NCBI GenBank assembly: GCA_019637265.1
Contig: JAHBVY010000008.1
Coordinates: forward strand, 62,001 to 126,000
DNA: 64,000 nt
Origin: Polyangiaceae bacterium
Lineage (GTDB): Bacteria; Myxococcota_A; Polyangia; Polyangiales; Polyangiaceae
Direction of reading: 5' to 3'
Part shown: in pieces, positions 16,712 through 50,592 of the stretch
Layout of the letters: each line of letters starts with the position of its first letter
How positions within the stretch are numbered: position 1 is the first letter of the stretch
Notes under the pieces: generated by a model
Told to the model about the DNA's origin: nothing
The model's input: only the letters and a program-made list of their open reading frames with translations
Databases searched by the model: none
Made by a program: the position numbers and the translations under genes

Positions 16712-16942
16712 ATGATGATCAAGAAGCTCTCCACGATTGGTAACAGCCTGGGCCTCATCATCGATCGGCCCATCTTGGAGCTGCTCGACATCAACAAGGA
16801 CACGCCGCTCGAGATCCGAACCGACGGGAAGGCGCTCATCATCCGCCCGGCAGGGGAGGCGTCCCTGATGAACCGTGCACTCGCCGCCGCTCAGGAGATC
16901 GTCAAGGACCATGACGAGACGTTCAGAAAGCTCGCTCAGTGA
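16712..16942 (+). CDS. AbrB/MazE-type antitoxin
   Basis: 76 residues. The N-terminal swapped-hairpin DNA-binding domain is visible: KKLSTIGNSLGLIIDRPILE, LLDINKDTPLEIRTDGKALI, IRPAGE; the C-terminal ALAAAQEIVKDHDETFRKLA would wrap the toxin. Ribosome site GAGGTG. Its stop overlaps the GTG start of the Doc toxin by four bases, the standard antitoxin-first toxin-antitoxin layout. Pairing of an AbrB-type antitoxin with Doc is known, though Phd is more usual. Confidence 0.85.
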   Translation: MMIKKLSTIGNSLGLIIDRPILELLDINKDTPLEIRTDGKALIIRPAGEASLMNRALAAAQEIVKDHDETFRKLAQ

Positions 16943-17349
16943 GCCAAGCTGACGAAATCACGTTCCTGTCGGTCGAAGTGGTGATCGGGCTTCATCGGTT
17001 CCAGCTCGAGCTCTACGGTGGCGGTGCGGGCTTGCGTGATCGCGGCCTGCTGGAGTCGGCGCTCGCGCAACCGCAAGCGTCGTTCGGTGGCGTCTACGTG
17101 CACGAGGGGCTGTTCGCGATGGCCGCCGCGTACCTCTTCCACATCGTCTCCAACCACCCGTTCGTCGATGGCAACAAGCGGGCGGGGCTCCTCGCGGCGC
17201 TGACCTTCCTGCACCTCAACGGCATGGCGCTGAAGGGCGACTCTGAAGCCCTCTACGCGCTGACGATGGGCGTTGCCGAGGGGCGCCTCGACAAGCAAGC
17301 GGTCGCGGCAGAGCTCAAGCGCATCGCGAGCTGGAAGCCTGGCGAGTGA
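16939..17349 (+). CDS. doc: Doc-type (Fic-fold) toxin
   Basis: 136 residues from GTG 16939. The motif HPFVDGNKRAG (about residue 72) is the Doc form of the Fic motif, with Lys where Fic AMP-transferases have Gly. Doc enzymes phosphorylate elongation factor Tu and stop translation. LRDRGLLESALAQPQASFGG at residues 32-51 is also typical. It overlaps the AbrB-type antitoxin, which should neutralise it and control transcription. Length is normal (Doc of P1 is 126 residues), so the toxin is probably active. Confidence 0.9.
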   Translation: MSQADEITFLSVEVVIGLHRFQLELYGGGAGLRDRGLLESALAQPQASFGGVYVHEGLFAMAAAYLFHIVSNHPFVDGNKRAGLLAALTFLHLNGMALKGDSEALYALTMGVAEGRLDKQAVAAELKRIASWKPGE

Positions 17350-20784: not shown

Positions 20785-22026
20785 ATGAGTACAGCGGTGG
20801 GTGCCTTGGCGCAGGACGTGACCGAGCTGGCTCGTCGCGGCGTGGAGAGCTGGCGGTTATCGGAAGGTCAGCTAACGGTGTCGGTGGTCGCGCCCAGCGT
20901 TTCTGCGCGGGACGCGGACTTGGCGTTGGCGACGCTCCTCGACCGGGTGCGCGCGGCGTCGACCCGTGAACGTGCCCGCGAGCACGGCGCCGAAGAGGGA
21001 TTCCGCATCGAGGACGCGGCGGCGATCGCGCTCGGGCTGCCGCCTGGGCTCGACGCGGACAAGCTCTCCGCGTGGCTCGCCAGGCGCATGACGCTGGCTT
21101 GCCCGCTGGGTGTCGTCGTTCGCGAGGGGCCGATCGCGCTGGCCGCTGCGCTTCGTCACCGGGTGGGCTTCGCGCCGGATCGAGCCCGCTATGAGCGTCA
21201 GTTAGACGGACGAGTTCGGGTGGAGGCCTTCGAGCTGCATCCGGTGGAGCACTGCAACCTGCGCTGCGCCAACTGCTGCAATATGTCGCCGCTGGTGGGG
21301 GAGCATTGGCTCAGCGCGGCGGAGGTCTCCGCCCTGGCGCGCCGGATGGCGGAGGCCGTGGTCGCCGACGTGGTGAAGGTGATGGGGGGTGAGCCGCTCC
21401 TACATCCGGAGATCGCGCAGGTGGTGTGGGCGCTGCGGGAGTCCGGGGTGGGGGACCGCGTGCGGCTGTTCACCAACGGCCTGCTGCTGCGCTCGATGAA
21501 GGAGGAGTTTTGGGAGTCGCTCGATGAGCTGACGATTTCCAGCTATTCCAGCGCGCCCGTCAAGCCCGCCATCCTCGAGCTCGCGCGCGCGAAGGCGCGC
21601 CAGCATGACGTCGTGTTGAACGTGAAGCCGGTGGACAGCTTCAACCAGGTGCTCTCGCCGCGCTACGAAGCGGATGATGGGCGAACGCGGCGGACGTTCG
21701 AGCGCTGCTGGCTGCGTCACCGCTGCATGGTGGTGCGAGGTGGGAGGTTCTTCACTTGCACGCGCGCGGCGTACGCTGGCGAGTTCTTGCAGCGCGTGAG
21801 GCACGAAGCGCCTCCCAGCGACACGCCACTCGACAGGACGGGTGACGGTGTGGCGATTGAAGGGGTCGAGCTCGCGGAGCGGATCCAAGCGTACCTGAAC
21901 CGGAGCGCGCCGCTCGCCGCGTGCCGCTACTGCTTCGGCGGGGATGGACCGAGTGAGCCGCACTATCAGCTCTCCCGCGCCGAGGCGGCGGCGGGGGTGC
22001 TCTCGCGGAAGCTACTCGTGCTATGA
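20785..22026 (+). CDS. Radical SAM enzyme with C-terminal SPASM-like cysteines
   Basis: 413 residues, ribosome site GGGAGGT. Residues 1-150 are an Arg/Ala-rich N-terminal domain. The [4Fe-4S] motif is CNLRCANCC (C-x3-C-x2-C, about residue 157), then GGEPLLHPEI. Late Cys residues in RCWLRHRCMV, FFTCTRAA and ACRYCFGG suggest an auxiliary cluster, as in SPASM enzymes that modify peptides or sugars. First gene of a run in which every gene overlaps or abuts the next; ATGA joins it to the asparagine-synthetase-like gene. The reaction cannot be named from sequence; peptide or small-molecule modification is the inference. Confidence 0.85.
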   Translation: MSTAVGALAQDVTELARRGVESWRLSEGQLTVSVVAPSVSARDADLALATLLDRVRAASTRERAREHGAEEGFRIEDAAAIALGLPPGLDADKLSAWLARRMTLACPLGVVVREGPIALAAALRHRVGFAPDRARYERQLDGRVRVEAFELHPVEHCNLRCANCCNMSPLVGEHWLSAAEVSALARRMAEAVVADVVKVMGGEPLLHPEIAQVVWALRESGVGDRVRLFTNGLLLRSMKEEFWESLDELTISSYSSAPVKPAILELARAKARQHDVVLNVKPVDSFNQVLSPRYEADDGRTRRTFERCWLRHRCMVVRGGRFFTCTRAAYAGEFLQRVRHEAPPSDTPLDRTGDGVAIEGVELAERIQAYLNRSAPLAACRYCFGGDGPSEPHYQLSRAEAAAGVLSRKLLVL

Positions 22027-23165
22027 GCTCGCACCTGTCAGTTAAGCTGTCATCGGGCACCCTGCTGTCATCAAGCGCCCTGTCAGCGGCTGCCATCGCC
22101 CAAGCCGGGGTGGCGGTCGCCGCGTCTTCGGCTTCAGGAGCTTCGGGGCTCGCGCTGGATCACGCCGCATCAGAGCGCGACTGGCATGGCGCTGTGCGCC
22201 GGTATATTCGCTTGGCTGACGGATGCGCTGCGCCCACTCTCAAAGCGCTGGTGGCCCCGCCCTTCGCCCTCGATCGCGCTGGCGTCGAGGCGGCCTGGGG
22301 CCTCCGTGAGTCGCCCGAGCGCACCGTCATCGCAGGGATCCAGCAGGCGCCCACGCCTGGCGTGGCTCCCACGGTGCGGGGCCAGGTGCTCGAGCAGCCA
22401 GCCTCCGCGTGGGCTGCGGCGCTTCAGGCTGACGTGGCGGCGATCGCGGAGGACGCCCGCGCGCCAGCCCTCGCGCTCGGCGGTGGTGTCGACGCGGCGG
22501 TGGTGCTCGCGGCGTGGCGCGCCTCGGGGCTGCCGCTGCCGGCCGTCTACACGCTCGCGACGGGGCTCGCCGAGTACGACGAAGTGGGGTCCGCCCAGGC
22601 CATCGCGGCGGCGCTCGGCGCGCGCTGTGAGGTCATCCAAGTTGCACCTAATTGTCTGGTGGAAATGTTGCCGCGCTGCGTCGCCGCGGCCGAGACGCCG
22701 CTCTACAACCTCCACCCCGTGAGTCGCCTCGCGCTCGCCACCCAGCTGAAGCGGCGAGGTCACGACGTCCTGGTGACGGGGGACGGTGCGGACGCGGCGT
22801 TCCTCGGGCGCCCCGATTGGGACTACGTGCCGGTGATGGCCGCGCTGACGGCGAGCGCCGGTTTGAAGCTCAGATCGCCCTTTTTCTCGTCAAGCACGCT
22901 GAGCGCGACGCTGATGCTGGCGCCGGATCGCGACAAGCGCGTGGTGCGTGACTTTGCATTGTTAGCGGGACTGCCTAGCGCCCTCGTCGGTGCGCCCAAG
23001 CGCCCTCGGTGGATGCCGCCGCTCGAGCTGGGTCAGGTCCTCGACGCGCGAGACATCGAACGGCTCGGTCGAGCGCTGGGGAGGGTGCCAACGCTCGACT
23101 CGGACCGCGCGCGGGTGGGGCTGGTGACGCTCGGGCTCTTGGTGCGCTACTTGGAGCGCGGCTGA
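22023..23165 (+). CDS. Asparagine-synthetase-like protein, probably inactive ATP loop
   Basis: 380 residues, only the synthetase half; there is no N-terminal glutaminase. The PP-loop should read SGG-x-DS but here reads ALGGGVDAAVVL (about residue 156), losing the Ser residues, and the second ATP segment is VTGDGADAAFLGRPDW. AspARN-type binding is therefore doubtful. It lies between the radical SAM gene (ATGA overlap) and an intact asparagine synthetase (TGATG overlap), suggesting a regulatory or scaffold partner of that enzyme, by analogy with pseudo-enzyme subunits. Gene order is strict. Confidence 0.7.
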   Translation: MSSHLSVKLSSGTLLSSSALSAAAIAQAGVAVAASSASGASGLALDHAASERDWHGAVRRYIRLADGCAAPTLKALVAPPFALDRAGVEAAWGLRESPERTVIAGIQQAPTPGVAPTVRGQVLEQPASAWAAALQADVAAIAEDARAPALALGGGVDAAVVLAAWRASGLPLPAVYTLATGLAEYDEVGSAQAIAAALGARCEVIQVAPNCLVEMLPRCVAAAETPLYNLHPVSRLALATQLKRRGHDVLVTGDGADAAFLGRPDWDYVPVMAALTASAGLKLRSPFFSSSTLSATLMLAPDRDKRVVRDFALLAGLPSALVGAPKRPRWMPPLELGQVLDARDIERLGRALGRVPTLDSDRARVGLVTLGLLVRYLERG

Positions 23166-24949
23166 TGTGCGGTATCGCGGGCATCGTCGACTTCAGTCGG
23201 CCCGGCAGCGCGTGGGGGGAACCGCTGCGGCAGGTGCGTGCGCGGCTGCGTCACCGCGGGCCCGACGGTGAGGGGGAGGCGTTCGGCTCGTTCGCGGCGC
23301 TCGCGCACACGCGGCTCGCGATGGTGGACGTGGAGGGGGGCGCGCAGCCGCTCCGGAGCGAGGACGGGCGTTACCTGCTCGTCTATAACGGCGAGCTGTA
23401 TAACCACGCGGAGCTTCGCGCGGCGGTCGACTCATCGGGCATCGGGTGGCGTTGGAGGAGGCGCACCGACACCGAGACGCTGCTCGCGGCGTGGGCCCTT
23501 TGGGGTGAGGCGTGCGTCCCGCGCCTCGATGGGATGTTCGCCTTCTTCATCTGGGACGAGCAGCGTCAGCTGGGCTTCGCGGTGCGCGATCCGCTGGGCG
23601 TCAAACCGCTCGCCTATCTCGATGGAGCTGGGCCTCGGTTCGCGTTCGCCTCCGAAGCGCAGGCGCTCTTACCACTCTTGCCATCGGCTCCCCGCGCCCA
23701 CCTGGACGCGGTGATCGAGCACCTCGTCGCGCCGATCTTCAGCGGCGTCGAAGCTTCGCCGTTCGAGGGGATCCGCTACCTGCCGCCGGGCCACCTGCTC
23801 GAGGTGAGTCGGGCGTCGCTCGGGCTCCGCGCCCACTTTCGCTTCGCGCCCGGCGCGTGCGAAGAGGACGATCCAGCGCGCGCGGCAGTCGCGGTCCGCG
23901 AGGCGCTGAGCCAGGCCGTCCGCGGCGCGCTCGTCTCGGAGCGGCCGCTCGGGGTGTTCTTGAGCGGCGGGCTCGACTCGACCGCGGTGGCCGCGCTCGC
24001 TCGCGAGGCGGGGGCTCGGCTCCCCGCCTTCACCATCACCTTCGAGGGCCAGGAGGCTTGGGACGGGGCGCGCTCGGCGCTGGTCGTCTCCAATGACACA
24101 CCGCGCGCGCGTGAGGCCGCGGCGGCGTTGGGGTGCCCGCTTCGCGAAGTGCGCTTCGAGCGGCGTACGTTGGAGCAAGAGCTCGAGGAGCTGGCTCGCG
24201 TCAATGACGCGATCCCTGCATGGGAGCAGGAGCTCTCGCAGCGCGCGCTCGCGCGCGCCGCCGCGGAGGAGGTGCGCGGCGTCTTCGTCGGAGATGCCGC
24301 GGACGAGACCCACTACGGGTACCACTTCCTCTTGGATGACGTGGCGACCAGTGGCCCGCCGGCGATCCTCGCGCGGTTCGGATCGATCCCGATCCGGGCG
24401 GACATCGATCCCGACCCGGCGACGCGGCTCGTGGGTCGTTACCGCGCGCTGATCGAGGAGGCCGGCGGCTCCTTCGGGACGCGGCGCGAGCGGATCCTCG
24501 CGACGACTCAGCTCATCGTGCGTCGCTGGCTCCCACGCCTGCTCCACAATGGAGACATCCACTGCATGGCGTTCGGCTTGGAGCCGCGGGTTCCCTTCGC
24601 GAGCGCGCCGCTCCTCGAGGCCGCCACGCGGGTGAGCCCCGAGCTTGGGCTCCGAGGGGGCGTCGAGAAGTGGCTCCTACGCGAGGCGCTCCGCGGCGTC
24701 GTCCCGGAGTCGATTCGGCTGCGGCGTAAGTCGGCGCTCCCCAAGGATCAGGACGTGGGCGAGAGCTACCAGCGGGTGGTGCGCGGCGTGCTCGCAGCGC
24801 CGCATCCATTGGTCAGTAGAATAGTCGATGTGCCGTCGCTGGCGCCGCTCCTCCAGCCGCGCGCGCTCTCCGAGCGCGAACGAGCGCAGCTCTTCCGCGT
24901 GATTTGCCTGCACCACTGGGCTACGGCGCACGATGTGGCGGCGCCGTGA
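23165..24949 (+). CDS. asnB: Asparagine synthetase, glutamine-hydrolysing type
   Basis: 594 residues from ATG 23165. The glutaminase half begins MCGIAGIVDFS with the catalytic Cys2; LRHRGPDGEG, YNGELYNH and TDTETLL are in place. The synthetase half has an intact PP-loop FLSGGLDSTAVAALAR (about residue 271) and GDAADETHYGYHF. The enzyme family moves glutamine-derived ammonia to an acyl-adenylate; in biosynthetic clusters such proteins also form amides or macrolactams. In this operon it probably aminates, or joins by amide bond, the product of the radical SAM enzyme. Normal length. Confidence 0.9.
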   Translation: MCGIAGIVDFSRPGSAWGEPLRQVRARLRHRGPDGEGEAFGSFAALAHTRLAMVDVEGGAQPLRSEDGRYLLVYNGELYNHAELRAAVDSSGIGWRWRRRTDTETLLAAWALWGEACVPRLDGMFAFFIWDEQRQLGFAVRDPLGVKPLAYLDGAGPRFAFASEAQALLPLLPSAPRAHLDAVIEHLVAPIFSGVEASPFEGIRYLPPGHLLEVSRASLGLRAHFRFAPGACEEDDPARAAVAVREALSQAVRGALVSERPLGVFLSGGLDSTAVAALAREAGARLPAFTITFEGQEAWDGARSALVVSNDTPRAREAAAALGCPLREVRFERRTLEQELEELARVNDAIPAWEQELSQRALARAAAEEVRGVFVGDAADETHYGYHFLLDDVATSGPPAILARFGSIPIRADIDPDPATRLVGRYRALIEEAGGSFGTRRERILATTQLIVRRWLPRLLHNGDIHCMAFGLEPRVPFASAPLLEAATRVSPELGLRGGVEKWLLREALRGVVPESIRLRRKSALPKDQDVGESYQRVVRGVLAAPHPLVSRIVDVPSLAPLLQPRALSERERAQLFRVICLHHWATAHDVAAP

Positions 24950-24969
24950 TCCCATGGGGGAAGCACCTG

Positions 24970-25059
24970 ATGACTGACGATTGGTCAATGAAGCTGATTG
25001 AATCCGTGAGCCTCGTGGCGAACGAGCGCCGCGCGAGGGGGTCAAGGGAGCTGATGTGA
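24970..25059 (+). CDS. 29-residue small ORF, possible precursor or leader
   Basis: ATG 24970 to TGA 25059, starting MTDDWSMKLIESVSLV and ending SRELM. It has a ribosome site GGGGGAAG seven bases upstream and its stop overlaps the GTG of the glycosyltransferase (GTGA), like the other joints in the operon. That makes translation likely. Whether it is a substrate peptide for the radical SAM and amide enzymes, or only a coupling leader, cannot be told; it has no Cys, little Gly and no clear leader/core division. Confidence 0.45.
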   Translation: MTDDWSMKLIESVSLVANERRARGSRELM

Positions 25060-26228
25060 AGCGCGTGCTCGTCGTCACCCTGCCGGAGAGGGGCCACTAC
25101 CACCCGCTGCTCGGGCCGGCAGAGGAGCTCACGCGTCGCGGGGCGGAGGTCGCCTTCGCGTGCACCTGCGACATCAGCGCTGAGCTAGCCGAGGCGGGCG
25201 TTCAGCGCGTGATCACGCCGCCGGGGGCATCGCCGCCGTCTGCGGGCCTGCGAGGGGCTGCGCTCGCGCGGGTGCTCTCGGATGCCGCGGCGCTCCGTCG
25301 CTGGATCCGCGAGCTGCTGATCGAGGTGCCCGCTCAGAACGTCGAGCCCCTGCGCGCCATCGTCCGCGACTTCCGGCCGGACGTGGTCGCGATCGACACG
25401 ATGGCTTACGACGCCGCGATCGCCGCCGAGCTGGAGGGCGTGCCTTGGGTGGGTTGGGCCACCTCGCTCAACCCGGTGTTACCCCAGGCGCTGGACAGTG
25501 AGCTGCTCGCCACCTTGCGCGCGCTCGACTCGTCACGCCACGCGCTCTTCGGGGATTGGGGTTTGGCGGCGCGCTTCCGCGGTAGCGATGTGCTCTCTCC
25601 CCGTGGGACGGCGGTGTTCGCCACCCGTGCGCTGGTGGGGAGCCCGCCGTCGGGCGTCTGCCTGGTGGGGCCGTCGCTCGGTGGGCGGCGCGGTGATTCG
25701 GACGTGGACCTGACGTTCGCTGAAGGGCGGCCCCTCGTCTACGCGTCCTTCGGGAGCCAAGCATGGTACCAGCCGGGGCGCTTCGAGCGGATCATCGAGG
25801 CCGCTCGGGCTGCCGACGTGGCGCTCTTCGCGGCGATGGGTGATTTGGCTGACGACTTTCAAGGCCGTGGGTTGCCGCCGCGCGTGCGCTTGGTCCCCTT
25901 CGCTCCGCAGCTTCAGGTGCTGGCGCGGGCTCACGTCGCGATCAGCCACGGCGGCGCCAACTCGGTGATGGAAGGCTTGGCGGCGGGGGTGCCGCTGCTC
26001 ATCTCGCCGATCTGCAACGACCAGCCGCACAACCTCCACTTCGTCTCCGCGGCGGGGGCAGGGCTAGGGATGGACCTCGACGCTTGCAGCGTGGCGGAGC
26101 TGGCAGCGGCGCTCCACCAGCTCGCGGGCGATGGACCTTGGCGCGCCGCCGCGCGACGTATCGCCGCCTCCTACGCGAGCCGGGACGGTTCTCAGGGCGC
26201 GGCGGACTTGGTGGAGCAGGCAGCGTGA
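25056..26228 (+). CDS. Glycosyltransferase, family 1 (UGT/MGT type)
   Basis: 390 residues from GTG 25056. GT-B fold: the N-terminal acceptor domain starts VLVVTLPERGHYHPLLGPAE and the C-terminal donor domain has VYASFGSQAWY, VPFAPQLQVLARAHVAISHG and GGANSVMEGLAAGVPLLISP, the nucleotide-sugar-binding motif of macrolide, glycopeptide and flavonoid glycosyltransferases. These usually add sugars to small molecules or peptides. It overlaps both neighbours (GTGA and TGATG), so it belongs to the operon product pathway. Confidence 0.9.
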   Translation: MKRVLVVTLPERGHYHPLLGPAEELTRRGAEVAFACTCDISAELAEAGVQRVITPPGASPPSAGLRGAALARVLSDAAALRRWIRELLIEVPAQNVEPLRAIVRDFRPDVVAIDTMAYDAAIAAELEGVPWVGWATSLNPVLPQALDSELLATLRALDSSRHALFGDWGLAARFRGSDVLSPRGTAVFATRALVGSPPSGVCLVGPSLGGRRGDSDVDLTFAEGRPLVYASFGSQAWYQPGRFERIIEAARAADVALFAAMGDLADDFQGRGLPPRVRLVPFAPQLQVLARAHVAISHGGANSVMEGLAAGVPLLISPICNDQPHNLHFVSAAGAGLGMDLDACSVAELAAALHQLAGDGPWRAAARRIAASYASRDGSQGAADLVEQAA

Positions 26229-27202
26229 TGGAGCAGGCAGCGCCGTGTGGCAGTAAGAGCCGTGTGATGGAGATCCCGCTCACCGTCGTCGCGCGGAACG
26301 AGGAGCGCGCGATCGGCGCGTGCCTCGAGTCGCTGCTCGCGTCCGCCCGCTACGCCGAAGCGCGGCTCCCGCTCTGCTTCGCGCCGCTGGTGGTGCTCGA
26401 TGATTGCCGCGATGGCACGGAGGCCGAGGTGCGCCGCCTGGGTGTGCTCTGCGTCGCGAGCCACGGTGGGAAGGTGGAGGGGCAGCGCCGTGGTCAGCGA
26501 CCGGGTCCGTTTCAGATCTTCAGCGACGCGGACCTTTTAGTCAGTGAAGATACCTTGTGCGCCTTGTGCGAGGTGATGCTCGAAGCGTCAGAGGTTCAGG
26601 TCGCCTTCCCTCCCAAGCTGCCGCTCGAGCCGCGGCGGCGCACGCCCATCGCCTGGGCGCTCCACGTGTACAACCTGCGGCGCGGCTTCTCGTCGCAGCG
26701 CACCTGGTTCAGCGGCAAGCTGTTCGCGATCCGCCGCTGGTCGCTGCCCACGCCGCTCGAGGTCCTTCGCCGCGCCGAGCGGTTGCCACGGCGCGCGTTC
26801 TACGACTACGGAGCGCCCCTCCAGGTCGACGACGTCTTGCTCAGTCGTCAGGCAGTGGCCGAAGGTGGCGCTTCAGCGGTGCGAGAGACAGCGCGTGGGC
26901 TCGTGCGCTATCGCGCCCCGGAGACGCTCCAAGGGATGTACCGCACCTATCGCCGGCTGCGTCGTGAGCTCGAGCGGACGGACGCGCTGTTCCCCGAGAC
27001 GCGGCCGGTTCATCGGCAATTCGGCGAGCGGCGGGCTGACCAGCTCGCGAGCGCACAGCTCAGCGAGCGCGCGGCGTGGCTGGTCTTTCAGGCCGCGCTC
27101 ATGGGATGCCGAGCTGTCTATCGAGTGGACCGCCTCGCTCATGACCTCGGCGCTTCGCCGGCGAGGCCGTGGCCTCCCATCGTGGAGACCAAGGAGCTGT
27201 GA
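26228..27202 (+). CDS. Glycosyltransferase, family 2
   Basis: 324 residues from ATG 26228, TGATG overlap with the previous gene. GT-A fold: PLTVVARNEERAIGACLESL at the start, a DDCRDGT segment and the metal site FSDADLLVSE (D-x-D, about residue 98). QVDDVLLSRQAVAEGG is near the expected catalytic region. RAPETLQGMYRTYRRLRREL is a long basic helix of unknown role. No membrane segment except possible weak C-terminal helices. Likely adds a second sugar or acts on a lipid or peptide carrier. Confidence 0.8.
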   Translation: MEQAAPCGSKSRVMEIPLTVVARNEERAIGACLESLLASARYAEARLPLCFAPLVVLDDCRDGTEAEVRRLGVLCVASHGGKVEGQRRGQRPGPFQIFSDADLLVSEDTLCALCEVMLEASEVQVAFPPKLPLEPRRRTPIAWALHVYNLRRGFSSQRTWFSGKLFAIRRWSLPTPLEVLRRAERLPRRAFYDYGAPLQVDDVLLSRQAVAEGGASAVRETARGLVRYRAPETLQGMYRTYRRLRRELERTDALFPETRPVHRQFGERRADQLASAQLSERAAWLVFQAALMGCRAVYRVDRLAHDLGASPARPWPPIVETKEL

Positions 27203-28005
27203 TCCGCCTGAGGCCCGAAGGGGTGTTCCCGCTCGAGGTGTGGAACCTGCCGGTGGGCGGGCGGCCGCTTCAGGCGTGGCGGCGAACGCCGCGCTTCGCG
27301 AGCGCGCTGCGCGAGGTGGTGGAGGGGCTCCGCCGTGATCTTCCCCCACCAGGGGCGGGCACTTTACGCCCCGCGGTGAGGGAGCGAGCCTCATCGGTCA
27401 GTCATATTTACCTGACCGGTGGTGGGGCGACGGAGCCTGGCTTGGCGCAGGGGCTCCGGGCGGCTGGGTTCTCTGTTTCGCTGGCTGAGGCGCCGCGCTT
27501 CGCGGCGGCGCAGGCGGGGCTCACATGGGGTGCAGCTTGCGTCGACGTGGGGCAGACCTCGCTGAAGCTGGCGAGGTGTTCGCGGCGCCTCTCACCGAGC
27601 CATGACGTGACGAGCGTGGAGCGTGACTTGGTGGCCGCGCCACACCGCGACGAGACGCCGCTCGCCGCGCGGAGCACCGCGCGCGCCTCCACGATTCGGT
27701 TCTTGAGCGGCGCCATCGCGGCGCACGCGCGTGAGCTGCCGCTCGTGCTGGCGTTGCCCTGCGAGCTGTCAGATGAAGGGGTGCTCTCGGGGTGCACCTA
27801 CTGTTGGAAGAAGGGGGACGAGACGTTGCTGCGCGAGCTGGCGGAGGCCGCGAAGGTCGACTGGGAGCGGCTCCAAGTGCTGAACGATGCCGAGCTCGCG
27901 GCCGTCAGCGCGCAGCTCGATGCCAGCGTTCCGGCGGGTGAGGTCACGCTCGTGCTCACGGTGGGCTTCGGGGTGGGGGCGGCGTTGCTCGAGAAGGTCG
28001 GGTGA
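27199..28005 (+). CDS. Sugar-kinase/actin-fold (ROK-like) protein
   Basis: 268 residues from GTG 27199 (GTGA overlap). ASKHA signatures: HIYLTGGGATEPGLAQGL (about residue 71), CVDVGQTSLKLARC as the phosphate-1 loop (about residue 115), VLALPCELSDEGVLSG, VLNDAELAAVSAQL and TLVLTVGFGVGAALLEKVG. The order resembles ROK sugar kinases and repressors, although the first ~60 residues are unusual. There is no obvious DNA-binding domain. It may activate a sugar for the two glycosyltransferases; this is inference from context. Confidence 0.65.
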   Translation: MIRLRPEGVFPLEVWNLPVGGRPLQAWRRTPRFASALREVVEGLRRDLPPPGAGTLRPAVRERASSVSHIYLTGGGATEPGLAQGLRAAGFSVSLAEAPRFAAAQAGLTWGAACVDVGQTSLKLARCSRRLSPSHDVTSVERDLVAAPHRDETPLAARSTARASTIRFLSGAIAAHARELPLVLALPCELSDEGVLSGCTYCWKKGDETLLRELAEAAKVDWERLQVLNDAELAAVSAQLDASVPAGEVTLVLTVGFGVGAALLEKVG

Positions 28006-28856
28006 CTCACCTCTACGTCTCGCCGCACTTGGACGACGCCGCGCTCTCTTGCGCCGGTGGGATGCTGCGCCAGGCTCGTTCGGGCGCGCGCGTGGTTGTC
28101 TGCAGCGTGTTCACGCGTTCGGGTAGCGCCCGCCGCGACGCCGTACGGTGCGGTGAAGATCGCCGCGCGCTCGAGGCGGCGGGGATCGAGCCGCTCTACT
28201 TGGGCTTCATGGACGCGCCGGCGCGGCTGGGGGTGAAGCCGAGCTTCGAGCAGCTGGTGCTTCGGGCACGCCTCGATCGGGCGCTCGTGCGTGAGGTGGA
28301 GCGCGCGATCGCCGAGGCTATCCTGCGGGTGCGACCGAGTCAGGTGTACTTCCCTCTTGGCGTGGGTGGTCACATCGACCACCGCGCCGTCTTCGCAGCG
28401 CGCCCGAAGCGCTCAGGCGCCCGCTTCTACGTGGAGCGGCCGTATGGCTTCGTGCCGGTGCTTCGCGCGCTCTGTGGGATCGCGATGGGAGCCTCTAGTA
28501 CGGTGCTCTCACCGGATGAGGTGCTCCGGCAGTTCGAGGAAGGTGGCTGCGGAGCGCTCATGCTCGAAGCCGAGCGTCGCCGCTGCGCCGAGGTGTTGGC
28601 GCGCCGCGCGAGGCGCATGACCGTGGCGCTCGGCTCGGGGCAGGGCAGGGGGTTTGGCGTGGCGCTGGGTGCTGCGGTGACGATTCGGCGTCGGCGGTAT
28701 CCTGCCGAGCTATTCTCGGAGGCTGTTCGGTTGATTGACGGCTACACCAGTCAGGTAAATTGGCTGTTCGGCGCTGAAGGTGCCTCGCCGCAGTATCACC
28801 GGCACGTCCAGGCGCGTGGAGGGTGGTTCGAGGAGGAGGCGTTGCTCTTGCCTTGA
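28002..28856 (+). CDS. PIG-L / LmbE-type zinc deacetylase
   Basis: 284 residues from GTG 28002 (GTGA overlap). Metal-binding SPHLDDAALSCAG (H-x-D-D, about residue 8) and VGGHIDHRAVFAA (H-x-D-H, about residue 125) are the family signature of enzymes that remove N-acetyl groups from GlcNAc-containing molecules (MshB, BshB, glycopeptide deacetylases). It ends the operon. Together with the glycosyltransferases it suggests an N-acetylglucosamine-type sugar is added and then deacetylated. The family-repeat element begins 29 bases after the stop. Confidence 0.85.
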   Translation: MTHLYVSPHLDDAALSCAGGMLRQARSGARVVVCSVFTRSGSARRDAVRCGEDRRALEAAGIEPLYLGFMDAPARLGVKPSFEQLVLRARLDRALVREVERAIAEAILRVRPSQVYFPLGVGGHIDHRAVFAARPKRSGARFYVERPYGFVPVLRALCGIAMGASSTVLSPDEVLRQFEEGGCGALMLEAERRRCAEVLARRARRMTVALGSGQGRGFGVALGAAVTIRRRRYPAELFSEAVRLIDGYTSQVNWLFGAEGASPQYHRHVQARGGWFEEEALLLP

Positions 28857-45637: not shown

Positions 45638-45695
45638 GTGACCCATCAGCGACGCCGGGGAGACAGGCAGCGGGGTGGGTGTGCAGCCTCTGGGC

Positions 45696-46040
45696 ATGCG
45701 GAAGATCAGGATGGAGGCGGAGGCGCGGAGGTGCCTCGCGCAGGTTGAGGCGTCAGGGCGGTCGCTCGCGGGGTGGGCGCGGGCTCATGGTGTCGACGTG
45801 CAGTCGCTGTATGGGTGGCGGAGGGCGCTCAAGCAGCGCGCAGACGGCTACTCAAGGGTGACCGGTGAGGGGGTGTCGCCGCCGACGTTCGTCGAGCTGG
45901 TGGCGGCGCCCGAGGGGCGCGACGTGCCTGACACGGCTGCTCGGTACGTCGTGTGCCTGGAGGGGGCGCGCATCGAGGTGGATGACTCGTTCCGCGCCGA
46001 CACGTTGGCGCGGCTGGTGAGAGCGCTGCGCGCGTGCTGA
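45696..46040 (+). CDS. tnpA: IS66 TnpA (OrfA)
   Basis: 114 residues from ATG 45696 (in-frame GTG 45675 possible). HTH: RRCLAQVEASGRSLAGWARA, HGVDVQSLYGWRRALK, then a variable tail. Its end overlaps tnpB by seven bases. Such small proteins are accessory to IS66 transposition. Confidence 0.85.
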   Translation: MRKIRMEAEARRCLAQVEASGRSLAGWARAHGVDVQSLYGWRRALKQRADGYSRVTGEGVSPPTFVELVAAPEGRDVPDTAARYVVCLEGARIEVDDSFRADTLARLVRALRAC

Positions 46041-46393
46041 GCTTGCCGCCGACGTGGCGCGTGTTCGTGGCGGTGGAGCCGTGCGACATGCGTCGGTCGT
46101 TCGATGGGCTGGCGGGCGCTGTTCGAGCGCTTGGGCTCGATCCGGTGAGTGGGCACGTCTACTTGTTCTTCAATCGGCGACGACGGCTCGCGAAGGCGTT
46201 GTGGTTCGATGGCTCGGGCTGGTGCTTGCTCAGCAAGCGGCTCGAGCAGGGCAGCTTCCAGCTCCCGCGGCTGAGCGGCGACGAGAAGACGGTCGCCATC
46301 AACGGCGCGGCCTTCGCCTCCCTGCTCGCCGGCATCGACTTCACCGTCGCCAGGCGCGGGTGGTTCCGCGCGGAGAGCACTTCGCGTCGATAG
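46034..46393 (+). CDS. tnpB: IS66 TnpB (Orf2)
   Basis: 119 residues from GTG 46034. VEPCDMRRSFDGLAGAVRAL and VYLFFNRRRRLAKALWFDGS, GWCLLSKRLEQGSFQLPRL are the diagnostic IS66 Orf2 segments. Required for transposition of the family; exact role unknown. Confidence 0.9.
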   Translation: MLSLPPTWRVFVAVEPCDMRRSFDGLAGAVRALGLDPVSGHVYLFFNRRRRLAKALWFDGSGWCLLSKRLEQGSFQLPRLSGDEKTVAINGAAFASLLAGIDFTVARRGWFRAESTSRR

Positions 46394-46433
46394 GGGATCG
46401 ACATCCAAGATCAGGTGTGATCGGGTAGCGCCC

Positions 46434-47966
46434 GTGACCACCGCGGACTACCTCGCTGAGCTCGCCAGGCGCGACGCGGAGCTGAGTGTCATCCGTGCGG
46501 AAAATGCACGTCAGGCGAAACTCATCGAGAGCCTGACTGAGCAGCTGGTGGCGCTGACGGAGCGGATCGCTGAGCTTATCGCCGCCGTTGAGCGCAAAAA
46601 AGGCAAACCCCCGATCCCGAAACCCGTCGCGCCAGCGACATTGACTGAGGCAGAGCGCAAGGCGTTCGAGAATCGTCCGCGCCCACCCGAGAAGCCGCTC
46701 GAGCCGAAGAAGCCCAAGCAGCGCGCCAAGCCCACGGGGCGCAAGCCGCTGCCAAAGCACCTGCCCGAAGAGGTGCACCACCTGAGGCCCACAGCCTGCG
46801 ACCACTGCGGTGAAGCAGCGCTCGATCAGGTAGACGAGGTGACTGAAGAGAAGCTGCACGTCGTCAAGGAGCACCAGCGGCGGCGCGTCGTCACGCGTGT
46901 CACTTGCCGCTGCCGGAAGTGTGGCGAGCGTACGACTCCTGCGTCACTGCCCGCGCCGTTTCCACGCTCGAAGATCACGGGAGAGTGGCTCGCTTGGCTG
47001 ATGCATCAGAAGTTCTCGCTGCTCGTGCCGCTCGATCGCGTGCGCCGCGATCTCAAAGAGCGCGGCATCGCCATGGCGATGAGCACGCTGGTCAGCTACG
47101 TGGAGCGCGCTGCTGATCTGCTCGCGGCGATCGATGGCTACCACTGGAAGCAGCTGCTTGCTGGGCGTTGGATGGCGACGGACGCGACGGGCCTCAAGGT
47201 GCTGGTGAAGGGCTTGCCCGAAGCTCATAACGGCTACCTTGAGCAGTTTCACAACCATGAAGCCGTGGTGTTTCAGTACGCGGCGACGAAGCATGGCGAG
47301 GGCATCGAGAGCAAGCTCGCTGGTTTCCGCGGGACGCTCACCGCGGACGCTGAGCATCGCCTGAATGGCGTGTACGGTGAGCACGTGCTCGAAGCGGGCT
47401 GCAACGCCCACGCGCGTCGGAGGTTCCGGGACGCGGAGGCGACGCAGCCAGCGCTCGCGCTCGAGGGAGGGAAGTTCATCGGCGCGATGTACGGCGTCGA
47501 GGAAGACGCCCGGAAGGAAGGGCTCACGGGGAAGGCGCTGCTCGCGCGGCGCCGCGAGCGCGCCGGGCCGATCGCCAAGGAGTTTGACGAGTGGCGGGCG
47601 GCCACGCTCCCAGGCTTGTTGCCGAGTGAGCCCTTGGCGCAGGCGATTCGATACTACGATCGGCACCGTGAAGCGCTGCTGCGTTTCCTCGAGGATCCAG
47701 AGGTGCCGCTCGACAACTCCGCCACCGAGCGGCGGTTTCAACACGTCGCCAAGCTGCGCCTGAACATGCTCTTCGCGGGCAGCACCGAGGGGGCGCACCG
47801 AGCCTGCGTGCTGCTGGGCGTCTCCGCGACCTGTCGCACCATGGGCGTGAATTTCGAGCAGTACCTCGCCTGGGCCTTCGAGCGCTTGGGTACGCACCGC
47901 GAGCGCTTCGGCCTGCCGGTGAGCGAGCTGACGCCAGCGGCGTTTAAGCTGACGCTGGGCGGCTGA
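46434..47966 (+). CDS. tnpC: IS66 TnpC transposase
   Basis: 510 residues. Leucine zipper-like N terminus (LIESLTEQLVALTERIAELI), Cys-rich zinc finger (ACDHCGEAALDQV, RCRKCGERTTP), then the DDE catalytic domain: RWMATDATGLKVLV, GCNAHARRRFRDAEATQP, PLDNSATERRFQHVAKLRL. All blocks of an active enzyme are present. The stretch at 46593-46612 (A-run, GGCAAACCCCCGATCC) resembles repeat family C. Confidence 0.95.
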   Translation: MTTADYLAELARRDAELSVIRAENARQAKLIESLTEQLVALTERIAELIAAVERKKGKPPIPKPVAPATLTEAERKAFENRPRPPEKPLEPKKPKQRAKPTGRKPLPKHLPEEVHHLRPTACDHCGEAALDQVDEVTEEKLHVVKEHQRRRVVTRVTCRCRKCGERTTPASLPAPFPRSKITGEWLAWLMHQKFSLLVPLDRVRRDLKERGIAMAMSTLVSYVERAADLLAAIDGYHWKQLLAGRWMATDATGLKVLVKGLPEAHNGYLEQFHNHEAVVFQYAATKHGEGIESKLAGFRGTLTADAEHRLNGVYGEHVLEAGCNAHARRRFRDAEATQPALALEGGKFIGAMYGVEEDARKEGLTGKALLARRRERAGPIAKEFDEWRAATLPGLLPSEPLAQAIRYYDRHREALLRFLEDPEVPLDNSATERRFQHVAKLRLNMLFAGSTEGAHRACVLLGVSATCRTMGVNFEQYLAWAFERLGTHRERFGLPVSELTPAAFKLTLGG

Positions 47967-48453: not shown

Positions 48454-50592
48454 TCAGGCCCGCGTGGCGGCGAGTAACCTTCGAATCGTCCACGACAGCT
48501 CGTCGACATCACTCACGTGAATAGACAGGTTCGCCTGGTGTTGTCGAGCGATGCTCGACAGGCTCTGGAGCATGCTCGCTGGGTCCGAGGTGCGTCCTGT
48601 GATCCTCGTGGTGTCAGCGCGGTACGGCTCGATCTTTGTGATGGCGTAGCCGCCGATGGCGCGCGCGGCGCGCTCGACCTCACCCGCGGCGAGCTGCCGC
48701 TTCACCGCCTTTTTCCCTCGGGTGGGAGCAGGCTGATCGAGCCAGATGGACGCCGTGACCTCGACTTCGTGCCCCGAGAGCACGCGAATGCGCCCGCCGT
48801 GGCGGTACGCGAGCCGCGCGAGGCGCTTCGGCCGATTGACGGGGTCGAAGAGCAGGAAGCTGTCGTCAACCCGAGTGACGGGCGGGTCACCCAGCGCGCG
48901 TAGGAAGGTATCCGTACGATGGGCTCGTGCAGGTTGCATATCCCAGAAACGCACGACCATGCGGCCGCGCGTGGGCACGTCAGCGCCGAGTCGCTTCATC
49001 ACCTGAACGACCGCGTCCTCCGTTGGCTCGGGTGTCGTGATCTCGACGGCGAAGGGCTGCCCCGACGCGAGCGCCTCGACCTCACTCCGCAGCTTGGGGA
49101 GACGACGCTCCGTGGCGGCGAGCCGCCACGAGCTCTCCCGAGGGCCGAGCGGGACGCTGACGAGGACCTGCACGCCGTGCACCCAGCACCTGCGCCGGTT
49201 GCTCCGCGCGGCTTGGGCGACGGCGCGCGCGTCCTGAGCGCTCTTGGTGGCGATCGCGATGAGCGCGCACAGGGGCATGTGCGTGTGCACGCCGCCGGGC
49301 GCTACCCAGCCATCGTCCTTCCAGGCGAGGCCGCGCAGCGCGTGGAAGGCGTCATCGACGGCGTAGCCGAGGGCGATCACCGAGCCTCCGATCGCGCCGA
49401 GCTCGTCTGGCATCTCCACGCCGTCGTCCCACGCCTCCGCGTCATCGCCGGGCGCCGCGATTCCGTGCTCACGGACGAGCTGCTGCCAGGCCTCTGTCCA
49501 GGGCGCACCGGGCTCCCAGCCTGGCAGCAGCTTCGCGAGGTAGGCCTCCGCCTTCGCGACGCTCTCGAACCGCGCCACCATCACGCACTCGCCGCTGTTG
49601 TTGCCCGAAAAGCTTTGCCACACGGTAAGTGGTGGGGTCGGGTTGGGCGCTGCCATGGGGAGCGCGCGGCCGCAGCCTGCGCGCGGGCTCGGGCGCGAGA
49701 GCCAAGCCTGATGGGTGCGCCACCCGCTGAGGACCTGTGCGGCCGTGGTGGCCGGCAGTGAGGCGCCCGGCGCGTCGGAGAAGCTACACGCGAGGAGCCG
49801 CTGATCAGGCGTGATGCTGACGAAATCGAGCCCAGCGCCGCAGTCACCGCCGAAGAGCCGCGGGACAGGGACGAGGCCGCCCGCGCACACCGAGAGGCGC
49901 GCGGGGAGGGGAGCGCCTTTCAAGATGGCTGCGAGCCGCCCAGCGCCGGCTGTCGAGAGGCGCCGCCCGGGCTCGCCCACGTAGGTGAGGATGGAGACGT
50001 CCCGCGCACCGAAGGCGGCGAATTCAGACAGCAGCGCTGGTAAGGTGTCGAGCGCGCCGTCATCCACTAGGAGGTTGACGCCCCAGCGTTGGCCATTGGC
50101 TGAGAGAACCTCGGCGGCTCGTCGCCAGCGCGGATCGCTATAGACAGATAATCGGACGATACCGAGCGCCCCTTGCAGCTGCCTTAGGCGCGCTCCGGTG
50201 AGCAAGGTGCCGTTCGTGGTGACGTGCTGCGCCAGCTGGGTCGTCTGAGCGACTCGAGCGACCAGATCATCGAAGCCCGCGAACGCCAGCGGCTCGCCGC
50301 CGCCGTACGCGACCTCCAGCGTGCCGGCCTCCGAGAGGCCCCGGAGCACCTGAGCGGCCGTCTCGGCCGTCCACCGGCTCGGCCTCGATGCGTCTCGCGA
50401 GCAGAAGGCGCAGCGCAGGTTGCACGCGTTGGTGATGCCGAACATCACCACGCGCGGCGCGGTGCGCCTGAGCGCGCCGGTGGCGGCGGTGGCCAGGCGA
50501 ACGTGCGTCCCCGAGAGTGGGTGGAAGTACAACAGCGCCCCATCCAGCGGGTGCGCCCTGAAGCCAGGCGGAAATATTGGCAGGCCTTCCAC
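48454..50592 (-). CDS. Radical SAM domain fused to an uncharacterised C-terminal domain
   Basis: 712 residues. Residues about 45-280 are radical SAM: ITNACNLRCAFCSRDASRPS (C-x3-C-x2-C), VAYGGGEPLAFAGFDDLV and the THVTTNGTLL-type strand, with later Cys residues (SVCAGGLVPV, GDCGAGLDF, LACSFSD, GCGRALP). From about residue 330 a second region begins (LTVWQSFSGNNSGECVMVAR, AYLAKLLPGWEPG) and continues through FWDMQPARAHRTDTFLRALG. I do not recognise it. The fusion suggests that one enzyme activates or carries its own substrate-binding part. No precursor peptide gene is close by. Confidence 0.75.
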   Translation of the reverse strand: MEGLPIFPPGFRAHPLDGALLYFHPLSGTHVRLATAATGALRRTAPRVVMFGITNACNLRCAFCSRDASRPSRWTAETAAQVLRGLSEAGTLEVAYGGGEPLAFAGFDDLVARVAQTTQLAQHVTTNGTLLTGARLRQLQGALGIVRLSVYSDPRWRRAAEVLSANGQRWGVNLLVDDGALDTLPALLSEFAAFGARDVSILTYVGEPGRRLSTAGAGRLAAILKGAPLPARLSVCAGGLVPVPRLFGGDCGAGLDFVSITPDQRLLACSFSDAPGASLPATTAAQVLSGWRTHQAWLSRPSPRAGCGRALPMAAPNPTPPLTVWQSFSGNNSGECVMVARFESVAKAEAYLAKLLPGWEPGAPWTEAWQQLVREHGIAAPGDDAEAWDDGVEMPDELGAIGGSVIALGYAVDDAFHALRGLAWKDDGWVAPGGVHTHMPLCALIAIATKSAQDARAVAQAARSNRRRCWVHGVQVLVSVPLGPRESSWRLAATERRLPKLRSEVEALASGQPFAVEITTPEPTEDAVVQVMKRLGADVPTRGRMVVRFWDMQPARAHRTDTFLRALGDPPVTRVDDSFLLFDPVNRPKRLARLAYRHGGRIRVLSGHEVEVTASIWLDQPAPTRGKKAVKRQLAAGEVERAARAIGGYAITKIEPYRADTTRITGRTSDPASMLQSLSSIARQHQANLSIHVSDVDELSWTIRRLLAATRA

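Follow-up and report, generated by a model that had tools for sequence, protein, structure and literature searches.

A recurring seven-gene operon of Myxococcota with a candidate radical SAM epimerase and a putative permuted ROK-type kinase

Positions 20785-28856 of a 64,000-nucleotide stretch of Polyangiaceae bacterium DNA (assembly GCA_019637265.1, contig JAHBVY010000008.1, positions 62,001 to 126,000 of the forward strand; the whole stretch is called the window) constitute one operon of eight open reading frames (ORFs). Seven of these, encoding a radical S-adenosylmethionine (SAM) enzyme, two AsnB-type proteins, two glycosyltransferases (GT1 and GT2), a ROK-like kinase and a PIG-L family deacetylase, form a unit that recurs in other Myxococcota. 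The operon is proposed, with a probability of about 0.5, to build and remodel an amino-sugar-containing glycoside of these bacteria by the route described below. The host genome comprises 5.7 Mb and is 98.5% complete.

When public genomes were first scanned for the radical SAM enzyme, four relatives of 55-63% identity came up. At three of these loci (L002, L004 and L005) the seven genes stand in the same order as in the window, and the contig of the fourth (L003) stops shortly past the radical SAM gene. A profile of the radical SAM enzyme was searched in 183 genomes of the order and in a sample of 377 of the phylum, and a profile of the ROK-like protein in 317 genomes of the class. In all, 17 Myxococcota genomes, the window included (L005 and G361:C8 being one contig), carry either the unit or a clear variant, with the order mostly kept. 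The seven genes are adjacent in six of them (window, L002, L004, L005, L044 and L045), and L042 has the full run with other genes intervening. Occurrence is patchy: the unit was not found in the one other genome searched of the window's genus, which is 82% complete. The distance matrices of the seven proteins correlate in all 21 pairs (r 0.77-0.93, with at most 2 of 2000 label shuffles reaching values as high; the test is not corrected for species phylogeny). The operon copy of L048 (494-5737) has a G+C content at third codon positions of ~0.5, against ~0.78 in the neighbouring genes of its contig, which points to recent horizontal transfer as a block. Judged from the sequences, the seven-gene set is a travelling, horizontally mobile unit of Myxococcota.

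An earlier sequence-only reading had taken the genes for a single functional unit that fits no nameable pathway, and had set conserved co-occurrence as the test. The grouping is indeed present in related genomes, and its recurrence in 16 further ones, with the correlated gene distances, exceeds what chance would give. It is scarcely credible, then, that these are chance neighbours with housekeeping roles, in which the glutamine-dependent AsnB would be an ordinary asparagine synthetase. That protein does exceed the cut-off of the asparagine synthase equivalog TIGR01536 (325 bits, cut-off 267) and is the sole full-strength and intact Asn_synthase match in the genome, the rest, besides its partner, being weak and partial. 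Its motif GDAADETHYGY, however, is divergent and conserved in this family, and neither the ordered recurrence in many genomes nor the transfer as a block suits such a role; for the set as a whole the chance-neighbour reading is refuted by the co-occurrence.

The features of the operon are collected in Table 1. A frame check bore out all eight co-directional frames, as well as the tight junctions that had been described, with overlaps of 1-4 bases and one 20-base gap. The radical SAM gene overlaps the AsnB-like gene by 4 bases (22023-22026), which in turn shares one base with the AsnB gene (ATG at 23165). The end of the latter at 24949 is separated by 20 bases from the tiny ORF when this starts at ATG 24970, or overlaps it by 4 bases when GTG 24946 is used. 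The tiny ORF overlaps the GT1 gene by 4 bases. The GT1/GT2 overlap amounts to one base if GT2 starts at ATG 26228; the conserved part of GT2 begins at 26267, and in several relatives the GT2 start likewise lies near the GT1 stop. The last two junctions (GT2/ROK-like, with GTG 27199, and ROK-like/PIG-L) are 4-base overlaps. A consensus scan of the operon returned three terminator-like sites where 3.7 are expected, and in the second gene a single promoter-like site where 0.2 is expected; this gives no evidence for splitting the operon. The assumption of an eight-gene unit held for seven genes and failed for the tiny ORF, which has no conserved counterpart in the relatives, the AsnB and GT1 genes being mostly contiguous there; it is probably a spacer outside the unit.

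Table 1. Reading frames of the operon (positions in the window)
Feature	Coordinates	Strand	Remarks
Radical SAM enzyme	20785..22026	+	413 aa; RidA/YjgF-like N-terminal domain (~18-126) and predicted SpeY/HygY-type twitch core (136-411)
AsnB-like protein	22023..23165	+	380 aa; synthetase domain only, without glutaminase domain
AsnB-type amidotransferase, glutamine-dependent	23165..24949	+	catalytic Cys (MCGIAG) and SGGLDS loop intact
Tiny ORF	24970..25059	+	29 aa (37 aa from GTG 24946); probably spacer
GT1 (MGT/UGT-type) glycosyltransferase	25056..26228	+	kind acting on small molecules
GT2-type glycosyltransferase	26228..27202	+	start ATG 26228 or 26267
ROK-like sugar kinase (putative)	27199..28005	+	268 aa; circularly permuted domain order (best reading)
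PIG-L family N-deacetylase	28002..28856	+	metal motifs PHLDD and HIDH

The radical SAM enzyme reached the cut-off of no named NCBIfam model. Its best solved relative is 7wzv, titled twitch radical SAM dehydrogenase SpeY (phmmer E 3.5e-38), onto which the predicted model (predicted local distance difference test, pLDDT, 90) was superposed with Z 31.4 and a root-mean-square deviation of 1.8 over 257 residues at 34% identity. The C-x3-C-x2-C motif and the extra late cysteines pointed out previously are present: C157, C161 and C164 of the SAM cluster are invariant in 14 homologues, and among the late cysteines (C308, C314, C325, C380 and C383) all but C314 belong, together with G320, to the invariant pattern C-x(n)-G-x4-C ... 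CxxC of the twitch auxiliary cluster. The family assignment thus stood and could be narrowed from a generic radical SAM protein to what, on sequence and predicted structure, is a SpeY/HygY-type twitch enzyme, suited to sugar carbinol oxidation or epimerisation. SpeY/HygY enzymes are the carbinol dehydrogenase and epimerase of aminoglycoside pathways. The only plasmid relative of the radical SAM enzyme is encoded at a Streptomyces locus that also holds APH(7''), a hygromycin resistance gene.

Cys314 bears on which of the two activities is to be expected. The hygromycin-cluster homologue has a cysteine at residue 183 exactly, SpeY has a serine there, and Cys314 of the window enzyme falls in the same column, which holds cysteine in all aligned homologues but that of L023, where it is serine. 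Position 183 is what we take to be the hydrogen-donor cysteine site of HygY-type epimerases; Besandre et al. in 2021 reportedly found that Cys183 of HygY gives the hydrogen atom and that its mutation turns HygY into a dehydrogenase. Their paper is among the references of PMC10863075 and PMC10991966. This column predicts epimerase activity for the window enzyme and dehydrogenase activity for that of L023. In the predicted model, residues ~18-126 resemble domains of the RidA/YjgF type (Z 9.5-9.8 over 95-99 residues), and the shorter relatives of the enzyme are without this domain. The window encodes a further radical SAM protein, of 712 aa, at 48454-50592 on the minus strand; its long C-terminal part has no Pfam match.

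The ROK-like protein matched no Pfam family, PF00480 included, in either natural or re-permuted order, and re-permutation of the sequences brought no large gain in NCBIfam scores; the case for a permutation therefore comes from the order of the motifs and from the profile and fold alignments. An adenosine-type GG motif precedes the DVGQT phosphate-1 motif, the NDA motif with the catalytic Asp and an LGFGVG-type phosphate-2 motif, which is the reverse of the ROK order, and D-x-G-Q, NDA, G-x-G-x-G and the early GG are invariant in nine homologues. The ROK zinc motif CxCGxxGCxE is absent from the sequence. In profile alignment (hhalign) residues 113-268 fell on ROK positions 1-145 with probability 94.5, and the residues before them aligned, far less strongly, with 184-290; once the first 110 residues had been transferred to the C-terminal end, the alignment became continuous, the ROK profile used here being built from few sequences (effective number, Neff, 2.5). 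The NCBIfam matches follow the same reversed order. Residues 110-268 of the predicted kinase model (pLDDT 87, predicted template modelling score 0.88) superposed on the N-terminal halves of N-acetylglucosamine (GlcNAc), N-acetylmannosamine (ManNAc) and glucose kinases with Z ~9. A sequential Foldseek search with this model gave no match at E <= 0.001, and a search of a viral library no useful one. The best reading of these alignments is a circularly permuted sugar kinase; a protein whose N-terminal part is an unrelated domain is the less likely alternative. The ROK-fold assignment made earlier was thus upheld and sharpened, and it adds a putative phosphorylation step that the earlier scheme lacked.

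That the protein phosphorylates is supported by the conserved catalytic Asp and by one natural replacement. At L023 (14456-16922), in a genome (G423) in which no ROK-like gene was found anywhere, an APH-family phosphotransferase and a SPASM-type radical SAM protein stand beside the SpeY-like radical SAM enzyme with Ser at the hydrogen-donor position; an APH phosphotransferase in place of the ROK-like gene fits a phosphorylation step.

The intact AsnB with a degenerate AsnB-like partner, as had been described, was recognised again, with a refinement for the partner. AsnB carries an N-terminal Cys, a glutaminase domain and the loop SGGLDS, motifs present in 12 homologues. The ATP loop of the partner reads LGGGVDA in the window and is GGGVDA-like in the window group and in L020 and L021, and SGG[LV]DS in L019, L042-L045, L024 and L027; where one AsnB-type protein remains in a unit, it is of the synthetase-only kind. 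Since the loop is intact in several relatives and the synthetase-only kind is the one that survives, a relic is the less likely reading of the partner, and an amide synthetase, which may use ammonia from AsnB or another amine, the more likely one; the window copy has perhaps degenerated into a structural subunit.

The combination of a radical SAM enzyme, AsnB and an ORF of 29-37 aa in one operon recalls a ribosomally synthesised and post-translationally modified peptide (RiPP) or lasso peptide cluster, in which the tiny ORF would encode the precursor and the two enzymes would modify it. This is very improbable. The tiny ORF was rejected as a precursor for its absence from the relatives, and AsnB scores 189 bits against the lasso-cyclase model NF033535, whose cut-off is 525. 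The operon has no B1 gene (RiPP recognition element, RRE) and no B2 gene (protease); the N-terminal domain of the radical SAM enzyme looks like RidA and not like an RRE, and the nearest relatives of the enzyme act on sugars. The lasso/RiPP reading was rejected on the cyclase score, the missing genes and the non-conserved ORF. On the same grounds macrolactam formation, offered in the earlier scheme as an alternative to amide formation, found no support, whereas radical modification, amide formation, N-acetylhexosamine addition and deacetylation remained plausible.

The remaining assignments, GT1, GT2 and a GlcNAc-type deacetylase, were supported. GT1 is of the MGT/UGT type, and GT2 gave a weak Pfam match below the cut-off. 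The PIG-L protein matched PF02585 (E 8.4e-14, 52.6 bits, cut-off 28.2) with the PHxDD metal motif present; its nearest solved structures are glycopeptide pseudoaglycone deacetylases, over a short N-terminal metal-binding segment, and its only NCBIfam match is BshB1.

In the proposed scheme a common target molecule, the order of the steps, the substrates and the product are presumed from the gene unit, its recurrence and the family and residue assignments. GT1 and GT2 would place two sugars, at least one of them an N-acetylhexosamine from the housekeeping uridine diphosphate (UDP) pool, onto a small acceptor, and the PIG-L enzyme would remove the acetyl group to expose the amine. The AsnB-like protein, with or without the glutamine-dependent AsnB, would convert a carboxylate through an acyl-adenosine monophosphate (acyl-AMP) to an amide. 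At one carbinol carbon in a sugar ring the radical SAM enzyme would abstract a hydrogen and Cys314 would return a hydrogen atom, so that the centre is inverted, and the permuted ROK-type kinase would phosphorylate a sugar hydroxyl, as activation or self-protection.

The closest rivals of this glycoside scheme are decoration of an envelope glycan and synthesis of a mycothiol-like cofactor. The former would have the operon modify a cell-envelope glycolipid or polysaccharide (for example lipid A, exopolysaccharide or a spore-coat unit) rather than make a secreted metabolite; the glycosyltransferases, epimerase and deacetylase would act on this glycan, with AsnB perhaps forming a uronamide. Both amidotransferases and PIG-L deacetylases are known from loci for envelope glycans, and the set is accompanied by no conserved exporter or resistance gene and no dedicated sugar-nucleotide genes. 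Such a role is nevertheless unlikely, as GT1 belongs to the MGT/UGT type, which glycosylates small molecules, no polymerase, flippase or acyltransferase was recognised beside the unit, and its distribution is patchy and transferable. MshA/B/C and BshA/B/C work by the same combination of a glycosyltransferase, a PIG-L deacetylase and an enzyme that forms an amide. Glycosylation, de-N-acetylation and amide ligation to the freed amine could accordingly yield a low-molecular-weight cofactor or protectant, and the BshB1 match, the lack of an exporter and the confinement of the whole pathway to one small operon fit this. It is the less probable of the two, for no cysteine ligase (MshC or BshC) was recognised in the unit, some units are without PIG-L, and the patchy distribution is unlike that of a core redox cofactor.

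The variant operons bear on the glycoside scheme in both directions. Those of L024 (58-2086) and L027 (2379-4302) keep the synthetase-only AsnB-like protein, GT1, ROK-like and PIG-L genes, with the radical SAM gene divergently transcribed, and end in an AMP-binding ligase, an addition that favours the scheme, and a protein of ~188 aa without a Pfam match. In L020 and L021 the radical SAM gene is present as a tandem pair. Several findings weigh against the scheme. Not every step is obligatory: no relative of the window PIG-L protein was found in the L020 or L021 genomes; at L019 the ROK-like gene lies ~8 kb off and PIG-L is not near the unit, with weak matches elsewhere; GT2 is absent from some units; and the glutamine-dependent AsnB is absent from L024, L027 and L048, the last of these otherwise having the set. 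The window AsnB-like partner, in which both serines of SGGxDS are lost, is possibly inactive. In the neighbourhoods of the relatives the unit is accompanied by no conserved transporter, regulator or precursor peptide, and the lack of the first two is unlike most antibiotic clusters. Finally, the hygromycin-type locus mentioned above has many sugar and aminotransferase genes, none of which is in the operon.

The sole transporter-like gene seen inside a unit is a fragment of an AcrB-like RND gene between GT2 and the ROK-like gene of L042 (4803-6725). Directly upstream of the operon at L002 (7062-9756) and L003 (5646-8256) there are, by eye, genes for a microcompartment shell-like protein and an aldehyde dehydrogenase; a link to the operon was set aside as local, these genes not being seen elsewhere. 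Two further features of the window were noted by eye: a small AbrB-like gene followed, with a 4-base overlap, by a Fic/DOC-like gene (16712-17349), resembling a toxin-antitoxin pair, and three genes resembling an IS66-type insertion sequence (45675-47966).

Four of the enzymes can be set beside known systems. The radical SAM enzyme has in common with SpeY (spectinomycin) and HygY (hygromycin B) homology over the whole core, CxxxCxxC and the twitch cysteines, but the identity is 33-34% and the RidA-like N-terminal domain is extra; in contrast to the SAT1 cluster, the operon has no cyclitol or deoxysugar biosynthesis genes. The kinase has the phosphate-1, NDA, phosphate-2 and GG motifs of ROK sugar kinases (GlcNAc, ManNAc and polyphosphate-glucose), and differs in its permuted order and in lacking the zinc motif and a Pfam match. 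AsnB has the full architecture and catalytic residues of asparagine synthetase B and the hydroxyamidotransferase 7ylz; it differs in GDAADETHYGY and in its glutaminase-free paralogue as a partner. The PIG-L family and its metal motif are common to the teicoplanin Orf2 and Dbv21 pseudoaglycone deacetylases, whereas the operon has no glycopeptide genes. The moenomycin pathway combines glycosyltransferases with two AsnB-like enzymes; it resembles the operon in its sugar scaffold logic and its paired amidotransferase-like proteins, but the operon lacks prenyl and phosphoglycerate genes and its radical SAM enzyme is different.

Neither the family libraries nor the open-licence literature yielded a characterised cluster with this gene set, in agreement with the earlier statement that no pathway could be named, and the plasmid collection held no relatives of the ROK-like protein or GT2. 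Each enzyme is of a known kind; as far as checked, the way the genes are combined, the fusion of a RidA-like domain to a twitch enzyme and the putative permutation of the kinase are novel variations. A bolder claim, that the product is a sugar natural product of a new class, assembled without a classical core enzyme (polyketide, peptide, terpene or cyclitol synthase), and that the kinase represents a naturally occurring circular permutation of the ROK/ASKHA sugar-kinase fold, is put forward tentatively and, taken as a whole, is somewhat doubtful.

HygY and other radical SAM carbinol epimerases have come to light mainly in aminoglycoside pathways of actinomycetes. The operon pairs a predicted enzyme of this kind with two AsnB-type enzymes and a putative permuted kinase, and points to a saccharide product of a sort that genome mining based on core enzymes could miss. 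The loci with Cys (window) and Ser (L023, in G423) would open the predicted one-residue switch between epimerase and dehydrogenase to testing in natural enzymes.

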